Assembly (NCBI GenBank): GCA_015689685.1
Contig: WVSL01000005.1
Coordinates: 248,001-312,000, forward strand
Length of the DNA: 64,000 nt
Origin: Rhodobacterales bacterium HKCCE2091
Lineage (GTDB): Bacteria > Pseudomonadota > Alphaproteobacteria > Rhodobacterales > Rhodobacteraceae
Reading direction: 5' to 3'
The notes below the pieces were generated by a model. It searched no databases, was not told the origin of the DNA, and was given only the letters and a program-made list of their open reading frames with translations. The position numbers and the translations under genes were made by a program. How positions within the stretch are numbered: the stretch's first letter is position 1; every line of letters begins with the position of its first letter. Positions 545 through 32,953 of this stretch are shown piece after piece.

Positions 545-1177
545 ATGAACGATCCCCACGAATTCTACATGAACACCCTCGTGCCGATGGTCGTCGAACA
601 GACCAGCCGGGGCGAACGCGCCTACGACATCTTCTCGCGGCTGCTGAAGGAACGGATCATCTTCGTGTCCGGGCCGGTGCATGACGGCATGTCGAGCCTG
701 ATCGTCGCGCAGCTCCTGCACCTGGAGGCCGAGAACCCGTCGAAGGAAATTTCGATGTACATCAACAGCCCCGGCGGCGTCGTGACCTCGGGGCTCTCGA
801 TCTACGACACGATGCAGTACATCAAGCCAAAGGTCTCGACGCTGGTGGTGGGGCAGGCGGCCTCGATGGGCTCGCTGCTGCTCGCCGCGGGCGCGCCGGG
901 GATGCGGTTCTCGCTGCCGAACAGCCGGATCATGGTCCACCAGCCCTCGGGCGGCTACCAGGGCCAGGCGACCGACATCATGATCCATGCCGCCGAGACG
1001 CAGAAGCTCAAGGGCCGGCTGAACGAGATCTACGTGAAACACACCGGGCAATCGCTGGAAACAGTCCAGGAAGCGCTGGAGCGGGACAATTTCATGGACC
1101 CGGAACAGGCCAAGGCCTGGGGCCTGATCGATGAAATAGTCGAGAACCGCGACACGCCCGAAGCCCCCTCCGCGTAA
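545..1177 (+). CDS. clpP: ATP-dependent Clp protease proteolytic subunit ClpP
   Basis: This 210-aa serine peptidase forms the double-heptamer chamber that degrades proteins fed by ClpX or ClpA in the cytoplasm. The catalytic triad is visible: Ser107 in GQAASMGS, His132 in MVHQPSGG and Asp181 in [11 protein letters not shown]. The spacing is identical to E. coli ClpP (Ser-His 25, His-Asp 49 residues). The oligomerisation and substrate-binding stretch [20 protein letters not shown] is intact. Length is normal for the family. The start ATG at 545 is preceded by GAGGCAGGCGAG. clpX follows after 139 bases, the usual partner order. A heat-shock-like promoter lies just upstream. Confidence 0.97.
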
Positions 1178-1211
1178 CCCGCAGGGGCCCCCGCGGCGGG
1201 GAATTTTGACA

Positions 1212-1240
1212 TTGTGACCGGTCCGCCGGTGCACTAGGCT
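1212..1240 (+). promoter_or_regulatory. Putative sigma-70-type promoter of clpX
   Basis: TTGTGA (1212-1217), a 17-base spacer and TAGGCT (1235-1240) lie 76 bases upstream of clpX. The -35 is identical to that of the putative bamD promoter in this window (57285). This suggests clpX can be transcribed independently of clpP. Confidence 0.3.
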
Positions 1241-1316
1241 GATCCGAAAGCGCACGGCACGGGGGTCGGCAACGGTCGGGCCGGGACATCCGGTCCAGAG
1301 GTTCGAGGTAGGTGAC

Positions 1317-2582
<1,266 letters not shown>

Positions 2583-2637
2583 GCCGCACAGTAGAGCCTG
2601 GGTCTTACGCGTCAGCAGGTCTCCTGTTCACAGCGTT

Positions 2638-2677
2638 CGGTTTGTTCGTTTCCGCGCAGGGTTCACCGAACAAGCCG
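2638..2677. terminator. Inverted repeat 3' of clpX
   Basis: CGGTTTGTTCG (2638-2648) and CGAACAAGCCG (2667-2677) form an 11-bp stem with one mismatch or G-U pair and an 18-base loop, 55 bases after the clpX stop. No T-tract follows. It is a plausible 3' stabilising hairpin or terminator. Confidence 0.35.
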
Positions 2678-3151
2678 CTGAATACTCGATAATGTCGTCG
2701 GAGCACGACGCGCGAGCGGTGTTCGGCCCGATCCTAGGCGACCGACCAATTCGTCCTTTCGGGTGGCCACCGCCGCGGCCACCGCGCTCTTCCTGTCCGG
2801 TTCCGCATCCCCGACCAGTGCTCTTCAGCGTGCGTCTCCCACGATCTCGTCCCCTGCGCGGTCGTGATTGCGTTGCGCTGATGGAACTGCATGGGCGCGT
2901 CCGGAAAACCTCCGCTGCCATCGGGACATTCTCGCCCGATGCGCCGCCTGTCCCGGCCGGTGCCGGGCGCAACAGGCACCCCCGACCCTTCACATCCCGC
3001 GGCAACGCCAACCCGACCCCGCCGCCCCCCTTGGGCATACCACACGCGACCCCATCGGCGAGTACGCCCGCCCCCGCTCAAGGGACATCACTGCCCGCCG
3101 CCCGGGCGCTCTTGCCGAATACGCTCCCGCCCCGAACCCTTCGCCGCCCCG
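2678..3151. other. Non-coding, C-rich stretch between convergent genes
   Basis: No open frame here has a ribosome-binding site, a recognisable domain or plausible amino-acid composition; the translations are Pro/Arg-rich in every frame. Part of the stretch is strikingly C-rich on the plus strand (about 2985-3160). It separates clpX (plus) from the hydrolase gene (minus). I see nothing else in it. Confidence 0.5.
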
Positions 3152-5960: not shown

Positions 5961-6101
5961 TAGCGCCGGGACCTGCCCGGCGTGCGGCGTGGGATAGCCA
6001 CCGGCCGGGAGGAGGTCAACAGGAAATGCGGGCGGCGCGGTGCGGGTTGGCAAGCGGGCGCGCGGGGCTTAAGTCGCGGGCTGAAGATCGGAGACGGCGA
6101 C

Positions 6102-30893: not shown

Positions 30894-31476
30894 GCGCGGG
30901 GTAGAGCGAGGCCACCAGCAGAAGCGCCATCGTGATGTTGAACACGCGTAGCCGCGCGTGTGTCGACAGGATGCGCCGTACTTGCACGCCGCCCCAGGCC
31001 CAGATCGTGGTGCAGGGCACCGAGCAGATCGCGAAGACGGCCCCGACCAGGAGCGCGCCGGCCAGCACGGGGCCGTCGGGGGCGAAGGTGGTCTGCGCGT
31101 AGATCGCCATGTACCAGGCCTTGGGGTTCACCCACTGGAACGCGGCGGCCTGCAGGAACGTGAGCGGCCGCGCCTCCGCTTCGGCTTCCTTCGGCGGGGC
31201 GGCATTGGCGACCTTCCACGCGAGGTAGAGTAGGTAGACCGCCGACAGCGCGAGGATCACGGTCCTGAGCCCCGGCACCAGTTCGAACACGTTCAGCAGC
31301 GCGAAGCCGATCAGCGCGATCATCCCCCCGAAGCCGAGCGCGATGCCGGCGAGATGCGGGATCGTGCGGCGTAGCCCGAAATTCGCGCCCGAGGCGAGCA
31401 ACATGATGTTGTTCGGCCCCGGCGTGATGGTCGCGGCGATGGCGAAGAGGGCGAGGGCGGGCAATGTGGCGATCAT
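30883..31476 (-). CDS. LysE/RhtB-family amino-acid exporter
   Basis: A 197-aa inner-membrane protein with about five or six TM helices. The family start FAIAATITPGPNNIMLLASGANFGLRRTIPH contains the TPGPN signature; QAAAFQWVNPKAWYMAIYAQT holds the second conserved NPKAW. ATG 31476 has AAGGA upstream. It is divergent from an Lrp-family regulator gene with a palindrome between them. This is the classical LysE/Lrp pair in which excess amino acid switches on its own export. Substrate not predictable. Confidence 0.88.
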   Translation of the reverse strand: MIATLPALALFAIAATITPGPNNIMLLASGANFGLRRTIPHLAGIALGFGGMIALIGFALLNVFELVPGLRTVILALSAVYLLYLAWKVANAAPPKEAEAEARPLTFLQAAAFQWVNPKAWYMAIYAQTTFAPDGPVLAGALLVGAVFAICSVPCTTIWAWGGVQVRRILSTHARLRVFNITMALLLVASLYPALTR

Positions 31477-31529
31477 GCCGGGATCCTTACGCATTCCGGC
31501 CCGCAATGTCGTTGCAATCTGCGGCGTTC

Positions 31530-31545
31530 TGCGAAAGATTTCGCA
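31530..31545. promoter_or_regulatory. Operator-like palindrome in the LysE/Lrp divergent promoter
   Basis: TGCGAAA-GA-TTTCGCA is a perfect 7-bp inverted repeat in the 73-base gap between lysE-like and lrp-like genes, ending four bases before the regulator's start codon. A site for autoregulation by the Lrp-type protein is likely. Confidence 0.45.
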
Positions 31546-31549
31546 AGGA

Positions 31550-32002
31550 ATGACGGTTCTGGATCAGAAAGACAGGCAGATATTGCGCGTGCTTGAGCGT
31601 GACGCGCGGATCTCCAACCTCGACCTCGCCGCAGCGGTGGCGTTGTCGCCTTCCGCGACGTCGCGCCGGGTCGCGGCGCTGGAGGCCGCGGGCGTCCTGC
31701 GCGGATACCGCGCGGTCACGGATCCGGCGAAGGTGGGGCTCGGATTCCTCGCCTACGTCACGGTCGGCCTGTCGGAACACACCAAGGCTGCGCAGGAAGG
31801 GTTCGAGGCCGCCGTGGCGGAGGCACCCGAGGTGCGCGAGTGCCACAACGTGACCGGGCTCGTGGAATACATCCTCCGGGTCGAGGTGGCGGACCTCGTG
31901 GCCTACAAGCGCTTCCACACCGACACGCTCGGCGCGCTGCCGCATATCGCGACGATCACGACCTACGTCGTGATGGGATCGCCCAAGGATTTGCGGGGGT
32001 AG
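31550..32002 (+). CDS. Lrp/AsnC-family transcriptional regulator
   Basis: 150 aa. The N-terminal HTH (LDQKDRQILRVLERDARISNLDLAAAVALSPSATSRRVAALE) is followed by an AsnC/Lrp ligand-binding ACT-like RAM domain (FLAYVTVGL, VRECHNVTGLVEYILRVEV, ITTYVVMG). ATG 31550 has AAGG directly upstream, within the palindrome's edge. It is divergent from the LysE exporter and so probably controls it and itself. Standard length. Confidence 0.9.
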   Translation: MTVLDQKDRQILRVLERDARISNLDLAAAVALSPSATSRRVAALEAAGVLRGYRAVTDPAKVGLGFLAYVTVGLSEHTKAAQEGFEAAVAEAPEVRECHNVTGLVEYILRVEVADLVAYKRFHTDTLGALPHIATITTYVVMGSPKDLRG

Positions 32003-32003
32003 G

Positions 32004-32050
32004 AAATAAAACGGCGGCGGCGCCCAGGGAGGAGGAAGGGCACCGCCGCC
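32004..32050 (-). terminator. Rho-independent terminator of the CcsR-type array
   Basis: On the minus strand GGCGGCGGTGCCC (32050-32038) pairs with GGGCGCCGCCGCC (32025-32013) through 13 pairs with one G-U, and TTTTATTT (32011-32004) follows. The loop carries the CCTCCTCCC motif itself. It also lies two bases after the lrp-type gene stop and may end that transcript from the other side. Confidence 0.75.
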
Positions 32051-32264
32051 TAGTCATCAGCCCCTCGAGGGAGGAGGGAGGGACCGAACCGGAGCTAGGC
32101 TCCGGAGAAATCGGCGACCCAAGGGAGGAGGAGGGCCGCCGTATGCACCGATCCAAAGGGAGGAGGAGGGTCGGTGCATATTCCGTGTCTTAAAGCGGCC
32201 CCGCCCAAGGGAGGAGGAGGGCGGGGCCGCGGTCCCACGACGCCCAAGGGAGGAGGAGGGCGCC
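32013..32264 (-). ncRNA. CcsR/cuckoo-type small RNA array with six CCUCCUCCC motifs
   Basis: Read on the minus strand, CCTCCTCCC occurs six times (plus-strand GGGAGGAGG at 32027, 32069, 32123, 32158, 32209, 32248), mostly in hairpin loops. Stems include a perfect 12-bp GCGGCCCCGCCC pair (32195-32230), a perfect 10-bp TATGCACCGA pair (32142-32180), and a 9-bp stem at 32112-32141. A separate CCGGAGC-N3-GCTCCGG hairpin is at 32089-32105. Mismatches in the stems become G-U pairs only on the minus strand. The array follows a DUF1127 gene in the same direction, as in Rhodobacter, where CcsR RNAs are processed from the mRNA of a DUF1127 gene. The loop motif can pair with Shine-Dalgarno-like sequences. 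Confidence 0.85.
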
Positions 32265-32282
32265 CTGGTAAGCGTGTCGCCG

Positions 32283-32516
32283 TCAGCGCGTGGCGTTGAT
32301 CTCTTCGCCGTAGGCTGCATCGTAGGCGATGCGGGAGATCATCGAGCGCGCGATGCCGAGATCGGCCAGCTCGCGGTCGCTGAGGGCGTTCAATTCGTTG
32401 AAGGTCTGGCGGAAAACCCGGTGGGCTTCCAGGGTTTCGCGGAAGGCCGCGACCATCTCGCCGAGACGGGCGAAGATCGTCAGGCTCTCTTTCCGGCTGC
32501 TCGCAACATATGCCAT
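32283..32516 (-). CDS. DUF1127 protein, CcaF1-like
   Basis: 77 aa, basic. The conserved C-terminal half is FNELNALSDRELADLGIARSMISRIAYDAAYG, the DUF1127 core (R-E-L-x-D-x-G-I/L-x-R). In Rhodobacter the DUF1127 protein encoded ahead of the CcsR RNAs (CcaF1) binds RNA and influences sRNA levels. The same order is present here: promoter, DUF1127 gene, then the CCUCCUCCC hairpins starting 19 bases after the stop. ATG 32516 has GAGG eight bases upstream. Confidence 0.88.
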   Translation of the reverse strand: MAYVASSRKESLTIFARLGEMVAAFRETLEAHRVFRQTFNELNALSDRELADLGIARSMISRIAYDAAYGEEINATR

Positions 32517-32613
32517 GTCACAACCTCGTTCTCGTTTACTCAACCCCGATCCCTGCGCCGTTCTGCGTCGAAGCGCTTTGGACCGTCGGGCGCTGTTGGC
32601 CCTGTCGAGAATG

Positions 32614-32641
32614 AATTTACGCCGATGCTGCACTTGCACAA
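32614..32641 (-). promoter_or_regulatory. Putative promoter of the DUF1127/CcsR-type transcript
   Basis: On the minus strand TTGTGC (32641-32636), a 16-base spacer and TAAATT (32619-32614) lie about 100 bases upstream of the DUF1127 start. CcsR operons are known to be transcribed by heat-shock sigma factors; this site could serve either sigma class. Confidence 0.35.
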
Positions 32642-32953
32642 TCCCCGGGTCCGGCAATGCCGCCATGCGGCATCCGCATACGTTACGTAGGGTTCATCCA
32701 CAGGCTGGATGTTGGCGCTAACGAGAAATGTAATAGCAAGAACAATGGCTTGATGCGCATTGAGCCGCTGCTCGAGCGCGGAGCGCGTTCTATTCTCCAA
32801 TTGTGACAGTTTTCTGAAACCTCTCCGCGCATACGGGAATCGCATGGGTGTTCGCGTGCATTCGGCACGGGATTTCGGATTTCGGGCGGGGCCGCGCGGG
32901 ACGGGGTGCAGGCCGGCGGCAAAAGGATTACATGCCGGGGGAAAGGAGACGCC

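Follow-up and report, generated by a model that had tools for sequence, protein, structure and literature searches.

A CcsR-type RNA array behind a DUF1127 gene in Rhodobacterales bacterium HKCCE2091 and a predicted LsrB/VtlR-type LysR site in its promoter

The DUF1127 gene and its six-motif array

The window analysed here, a stretch of 64,000 nucleotides from the genome of Rhodobacterales bacterium HKCCE2091, carries on its minus strand a gene for a CcaF1-like DUF1127 protein of 77 amino acids (32283-32516; Pfam PF06568, 49.1 bits; cut-off 23.3). Directly behind this Pfam-confirmed gene, as the preliminary description had held, lie six exact minus-strand copies of CCTCCTCCC (32248-32256, 32209-32217, 32158-32166, 32123-32131, 32069-32077 and 32027-32035), the first of which is separated from the stop codon by 26 nt. 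A seventh exact match in the window, at 6007, is distant from the array; the seven matches compare with a mean of 1.2 in dinucleotide shuffles (n = 100), none of which reaches seven. The RNA of the minus strand between 32000 and 32287 folds with a z-score of -7.8, with none of 200 shuffles being equally stable, and all six CCUCCUCCC motifs are fully unpaired, each in the loop of its own predicted hairpin, which bears out the earlier placing of the six motifs in hairpin loops.

The last hairpin (32050-32013) holds its motif in the loop, is followed by the T-rich GTTTTATTT, and the two end just short of the 3′ end of a convergent AsnC/Lrp-type gene (31343-32002). A terminator with a motif-bearing loop had been proposed before, and the hairpin and T-run together (32004-32050, minus strand) indeed form a candidate transcription terminator, which was missed by a simple terminator scan that considers loops of 3-8 bases only. 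A second structural feature, evident from both fold and sequence, is a perfect short stem-loop without the motif (32089-32105, minus strand), located between the second and third of the units described below and overlapping the 5′ end of the model fit of the third; it is perhaps a processing element.

At curated cut-offs, Rfam yields no match in the array, a tRNA being the sole match in the window. In a permissive search the CcsR1 model RF02791 fits the array three times side by side, in each case over model positions 1-83 of 83 and with two motif hairpins, although all three fits remain below the gathering cut-off of 65.3 bits. On the minus strand, the first CcsR-like unit spans 32190-32273 with the motifs at 32248-32256 and 32209-32217 (32.6 bits, E 6.1e-6, fold z -4.95), the second 32106-32181 with those at 32158-32166 and 32123-32131 (29.1 bits, E 6.9e-5, fold z -7.41), and the third, which gives the best fit, 32009-32095 with those at 32069-32077 and 32027-32035 (43.4 bits, E 3.8e-9, fold z -4.73). 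Since the 83-position model comprises two hairpins and fits three times, the six motifs represent three ordinary CcsR-type units, and the spacing of the motif starts (39, 51, 35, 54 and 42) pairs the motifs in the same way. The alpha-r14 model RF02344 also fits 32145-32273, with 39.3 bits and thus below its cut-off of 58.8; we take alpha-r14 and the NfeR1 RNA of Sinorhizobium meliloti to be one family.

The locus belongs with the published CcsR/cuckoo arrays of ccaF1-CcsR (CIN1) type, as had been recognised from the letters, although the covariance-model search then suggested as a check gives a divided answer, with three adjacent full-length RF02791 fits, none of which reaches the cut-off. The accompanying notion of an expanded or differently divided version has to be dropped, as the six motifs amount to three units and more than six are found in 43 of the 69 arrays of relatives described below; the array itself is ordinary for its bacterial order and adds one member to the published family. 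CIN1 or cuckoo RNA loci are reportedly the subject of a 2015 study by Reinkensmeier and Giegerich. Pairing of the loops with Shine-Dalgarno sequences is plausible; within the window, the sole match to GGAGGAGG-N3-9-ATG is the opposite strand of the array itself.

In Rhodobacter sphaeroides, ccaF1 and CcsR1-4 are cotranscribed from an RpoHI/RpoHII promoter and matured by RNase E and CcaF1 (PMC10253847, in excerpt). The CcaF1 protein binds RNA and affects CcsR maturation (excerpts of PMC10253847 and PMC8307010), the flhR mRNA is a CcsR target (PMC8307010, same excerpt), and CcsR as well as Sor RNAs have been followed on Northern blots (PMC8625941 and PMC8307010, both in excerpt). The window locus resembles this operon (RF02791) in the order of a DUF1127 gene followed by two-hairpin RNAs with CCUCCUCCC loops, in the terminator-like 3′ end and in a TTG-type -35 element, and differs from it in having three units instead of four and in Rfam scores below the cut-off. 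With four RNAs of a two-hairpin model, about eight motifs would be expected in R. sphaeroides.

Arrays behind DUF1127 genes in related bacteria

The genome of HKCCE2091 contains a single array and six DUF1127 genes, one of which is associated with it. For a wider comparison, a DUF1127 profile was built from array-linked proteins and the best 80 of its 417 hits, mostly from Rhodobacteraceae or other Rhodobacterales, were taken; exact motifs alone were counted, leaving out degenerate copies at the array ends. Behind the DUF1127 gene, CCTCCTCCC is present in 72 of these 80 loci and occurs at least twice in 69, although, given a profile made from array-linked proteins and the choice of the best 80 of 417 hits, 72 of 80 is no frequency for DUF1127 genes at large. 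The 69 arrays from this selection hold 2-14 motifs (median 7) with spacings that peak at 35-45 and 65-70 bases, and in 41 of them a T-rich stretch follows within 32 bases of the last exact motif. In 73 arrays, the window's included, predicted hairpin loops hold 482 of the 505 motifs, compared with 108 of 505 when the flanks are shuffled; as the copies were picked by exact match, it is the stems and not the loop that are probed by this comparison.

Searches of the own genome and those of 40 relatives revealed CcsR1 matches at E <= 0.01 in 22 of the 41, with a single genome exceeding the cut-off, and up to 15 exact motifs per locus among the relatives. The largest arrays observed, with 15 and 14 exact motifs, each lie behind a single DUF1127 gene (L018 in genome G007 and L013 in G019, respectively), and in another locus (L006 in G008, 847-3008) four DUF1127-like reading frames are interleaved with CCTCCTCCC motifs.

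The promoter block

A near-invariant promoter block (32625-32679, minus strand) with little-conserved flanks precedes the DUF1127 start. It was examined in 81 upstream regions, 80 of them anchored on TTGTGC; L112 has no such anchor, while L080 is misanchored and lacks the box. The distal element E1, ATGC-N7-GCATGGCGGCATTG (32655-32679, minus strand), is predicted to be an LsrB/VtlR-type LysR box serving as the recognition site. Searching the 28 positions ahead of the anchor for the best match places its GCATRGC portion in 79 of the 80 anchored regions, beginning 26 or 27 bases from TTGTGC (25 and 54 loci, respectively), and the consensus across the loci reads ATGC-N7-GCATRGCRGCATTG with a nearly invariant ATGC. 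The proximal element E2, ATTGTGCANNYGCAGCAT (32625-32642, minus strand), overlaps the -35 region and is a predicted activation site. Having served as the anchor, the TTGTGC columns are bound to be invariant and carry no weight, and the GCAGC columns, occupied in 79-80 of the 80 anchored regions, were favoured by the choice of the anchor followed by GCAG wherever several TTGTGC were present; when the 300-base upstream regions are left unanchored, 77 of 81 contain ATTGTGC and 70 of 81 GCAGCAT.

The promoter-like site noted earlier upstream of the gene corresponds to TTGTGC at 32641-32636, the first of these positions being where the preliminary description ended. Together with a -10-like AAATT it makes up a promoter core (32613-32641, minus strand) that, judging from the column counts, is a candidate for an RpoH-type promoter, in agreement with the conserved TTG in the -35 element of RpoHI/RpoHII promoters (PMC3441632, in excerpt). 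In the aligned upstream regions a -10-like CATNTT follows E2; of the RpoH-type features, TTGTGC is present and the -10 columns are weak. A sigma-70 scan found no promoter between 31900 and 33000. Recognition sites of LysR proteins usually lie some 60 bases upstream of the transcription start, and E1 appears to be placed at roughly that distance from the likely start.

In pattern searches, the 14-base box GCATRGCNGCATTG occurs 42 times in 41 genomes, compared with three occurrences of the reversed pattern, and only once in the own genome, at 32655-32668; among 30 box loci that were fetched, 13 have a DUF1127 gene behind the box together with one or more array motifs, and 17 do not. For E2, 27 matches were found and all were fetched, 15 of them with array motifs within the next 1.5 kb, and the reversed pattern gave no match. 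The other three matches to the 16-base E2 pattern in the own genome have no E1 in the preceding 45 bases and no CCTCCTCCC within 1.5 kb behind them.

A matrix built from 78 of the 80 ccaF1 promoters, with the regulator loci discussed below left out, scores 35.4 at E1 and at most 0.25 elsewhere in the window outside 32501-32800. Over 38 control loci, 30 of which are PhaR loci, the maximum is 14.8, compared with a training median of 39.6, and the control median is -4.5. In the own genome, the five DUF1127 loci that lack an array all score below 0. When applied to the CcsR1 loci of relatives, a test that overlaps the training set (G022 is L044 and G001 is L096), the matrix places its best site 343-449 nt before the first motif in 16 of the 17 arrays of the family, with scores of 23.4-43.7; in five loci without such an array or from outside the family it does not exceed 5.1. 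In the exception among the 17, G024, the array is accompanied by E2, whereas a good E1 is missing and a DUF1127 frame was not found. At the lower end of the range, the array of G004 (L021) follows an E1-like site (23.4) and has neither E2 nor CTGCN3GCAG.

Two further loci were seen alongside these. The promoter stretch of G001, of the same genus, and of HKCCE3408 (L096) is identical over the letters compared, and the HKCCE3408 / G001 array has four exact motifs; G014 carries, in addition to another array, a second DUF1127 and array locus with E1 (L270, C1:708911).

The block closely resembles the box that in Rhizobiales drives DUF1127 genes, AbcR1 and NfeR1 under VtlR/LsrB. The Brucella VtlR motif is given as CAATGCAGCCATGCA, the reverse complement of TGCATGGCTGCATTG (PMC12595884, in excerpt), which differs from the E1 consensus by one base and from the window's copy by two. 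The final T of the VtlR/LsrB consensus GCAT-N3-TG-N3-T (excerpts of PMC7486931 and PMC8844928) is present in only 2 of 79 ccaF1 boxes, the others carrying A or G. VtlR itself, of which LsrB is the orthologue, activates DUF1127 genes and an AbcR sRNA (same excerpt of PMC12595884). The window resembles the VtlR regulon of Brucella and Agrobacterium in that a box close to TGCATGGCTGCATTG precedes a DUF1127 gene; the excerpts on that regulon describe no anti-Shine-Dalgarno array behind its DUF1127 genes. The predicted LysR site in the ccaF1-CcsR promoter is, to us, the new part of the locus and the one that carries most interest. Among the papers found by full-text literature searches, none tells in its title or the start of its abstract of LsrB/VtlR control of CcsR, but the main papers on CcsR, CcaF1, cuckoo RNAs and VtlR were outside its reach, so an earlier mention is possible; in PMC12501420, where LsrB and CcaF1 both occur, LsrB appears in the reference list only.

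A candidate LysR activator and its possible regulon

The own genome encodes, at C12:350358-351233, a LysR regulator that in sequence searches comes closest to LsrB among LysR proteins, matching PDB 9HH1 with E 4.9e-72 and the next LysR structure with 6.7e-30; 9HH1 is the cryo-EM structure of Agrobacterium tumefaciens LsrB (PMC11975290, in excerpt). With a trxB-linked LysR protein (L210) as the query, a match at E <= 1e-40 is found in 34 of 41 genomes. Within the window's family 24 of 25 genomes possess a relative (E 8e-83 to 5e-99), and 22 of these have no other match at E <= 1e-40; in the own genome the C12 gene is the only one. The remaining genome, G023, which is 85% complete, gave no regulator, though an array and box are present. 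Conversely, in eight of the 25 family genomes a clear array was not found by a search that may lose weak matches, and the regulator is present in all eight. The excerpt of PMC11975290 places lsrB in an operon with trxB. Among 41 genomes drawn from the class, trxB was found in 38 and 30 trxB loci were fetched, in 16 of which a relative of the C12 LysR gene adjoins trxB (E 8e-93 to 9e-25), while the 9 kb around trxB in the own genome contain no such relative.

The DNA-binding domain of the regulator is almost unchanged. The redox cysteines C144 and C273, on the other hand, are not conserved, with V and A at the places aligned by eye in the own protein, and the sole column with at least four cysteines lies elsewhere (9 of the 22 family proteins). 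In their absence, the regulator would not be expected to sense H2O2 in the way of its Agrobacterium counterpart, and its signal in Rhodobacterales would probably differ.

The locus most likely represents a ccaF1-CcsR (CIN1-type) stress operon for which both an RpoH-type sigma factor and an activator of the LsrB/VtlR kind, with predicted binding at E1 and E2, are needed to switch it on. In such a model, the LysR protein of C12:350358-351233 would bind E1 for recognition and E2, over the -35 element, for activation, and would act jointly with the RpoH-type sigma factor suggested by the relatives. Leftward transcription from about 32610 would first cross the DUF1127 gene, then the three two-hairpin anti-Shine-Dalgarno sRNAs, and end at the last hairpin. 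The precursor would probably be cut between the units by RNase E with the DUF1127 protein, and the released RNAs, with CCUCCUCCC exposed in the loops, would keep ribosomes from binding at G-rich Shine-Dalgarno sequences; the cotranscription, processing, sigma factor and mode of action of the window array are all drawn from the better-studied relatives. If this reading of the promoter is right, a well-studied stress operon has an activator that had gone unrecognised.

A precedent is found in S. meliloti, where, in the available excerpts, LsrB is indispensable for the anti-Shine-Dalgarno sRNA NfeR1 and has a T-N11-A box upstream of it, and where NfeR1, described as a single sRNA bearing three anti-Shine-Dalgarno motifs, uses such motifs to act on specific mRNAs; the loops of SmelA075 and SmelA099 also carry CCUCCUCCC (PMC3927594, in excerpt). 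The window shares with NfeR1/alpha-r14 the CCUCCUCCC hairpins and the LsrB-type box upstream, whereas it has three two-motif units behind a DUF1127 gene, and control by LsrB is shown for NfeR1 but predicted for the window array.

The promoter could also be read without the LysR protein, the same operon being bound at E1/E2 by a different protein, for example PhaR (CTGCN3GCAG), or simply having an unusual RpoH promoter. CTGCN3GCAG, which the excerpt of PMC12542648 cites as the PhaR site of R. sphaeroides, is indeed found in 49 of the 80 upstream regions, PhaR occurs in 24 of 25 family genomes, and the R. sphaeroides operon is RpoHI/RpoHII-dependent (PMC10253847, in excerpt). However, the PhaR-type operators near phaR in the own genome are paired CTGC-RNY-GCAG palindromes, whereas the centre of the ccaF1 sites reads AT[AG], and YGCRNYGCR is matched by no more than 6 of 80; the ccaF1 matrix stays, as given above, far from its training median over the controls, PhaR loci included; and the conserved block reaches ATGC-N7-GCAT, past the PhaR site. 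G004, the sole family genome without a PhaR match, yet keeps its array behind the E1-like site. Due to the different centre and pairing of its operators, their low matrix scores and the case of G004, PhaR was set aside as the regulator, and we regard a promoter that does not involve the LsrB-like regulator as unlikely. Doubts of another kind concern the hairpins, which might act as a decoy, either titrating the DUF1127 protein or, as an anti-Shine-Dalgarno mimic, competing for many messages at once, and not as separate trans-acting sRNAs with few targets. The RNA binding by CcaF1 and its effect on CcsR maturation fit such a role, as does the CCUCCU core in the loops, and a copy number varying from 0 to 14 per locus in the best 80 of 417 hits would suit a dose effect. 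The flhR target of CcsR in R. sphaeroides and the specific mRNAs hit by NfeR1 argue against it, as do the two spacing peaks, which are those expected of two-hairpin units, and a decoy seems rather improbable. Strong 3′ hairpins can protect an mRNA, and the array might do no more than stabilise the DUF1127 messenger at its 3′ end, or might consist of non-functional repeats, but with stems kept in 482 of 505 motif copies despite variable flanking bases, and the same nine loop bases recurring 505 times (in copies chosen by the exact motif), this can be given very little credence.

As a separate observation, two CTGC-RNY-GCAG operators near phaR (L124, about 1500-1543, contig C3 of the own genome) lie upstream of what appears by eye to be a phasin gene.

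Returning to the proposed LysR-activated operon, the regulator's own locus suggests a wider set of targets. In the excerpt of PMC11975290, LsrB is called unique to Rhizobiales on the basis of a tree of three LsrB and nine OxyR proteins. With somewhat less assurance than for the operon itself, we favour the view that control of anti-Shine-Dalgarno sRNAs and DUF1127 genes by LsrB/VtlR-kind LysR proteins is an old alphaproteobacterial regulon and not a Rhizobiales invention, and that its targets in Rhodobacterales include ccaF1-CcsR and a Sor-type sRNA, driven in response to a signal other than one sensed by the redox cysteines. If the promoter reading is right, this would correct the statement on LsrB and join the SorX/SorY, AbcR, NfeR1 and CcsR sRNAs in one regulon.

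Both strands of the 22 regulator loci that were fetched, out of 24 in the family, were scanned with the matrix. In 14 of the 22 the best site lies 0-120 nt after the regulator stop on the same strand, a placement expected by chance in about 1.5% of loci by our estimate from the positions scanned, and in the other eight it lies elsewhere than beside the regulator. The 17-base core of the Sor-type sRNA, ACCTCCCTGTTGGACTT, resembling SorX/SorY of R. sphaeroides (RF02784, RF02651), follows the LysR gene in 18 of the 22 family loci, a box-like sequence by a loose pattern in 17 and both in 14, the own genome being among the 18 and among the 14. The Sor-type sRNA would be a separate target of the same LysR regulator, predicted outside the CcsR array. 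This arrangement of regulator, box and Sor-type sRNA mirrors lsrB-abcR1 of Rhizobiales (PMC8844928, in excerpt). The Sor sRNAs may be related to the AbcR sRNAs; a literature search on SorY together with AbcR returned no relevant paper. Among 20 regulator loci searched, SorX is at or over its cut-off in nine, and in the own genome SorY (of the RF02651/RF02784 pair) scores 51.4 bits against a cut-off of 111 and SorX 40.9 against 46.6. The SorY/SorX-type sRNA of HKCCE2091 is located at 1307-1380 of L001 (contig C12), behind the LysR gene, the place that is occupied by AbcR1/2 in Rhizobiales.
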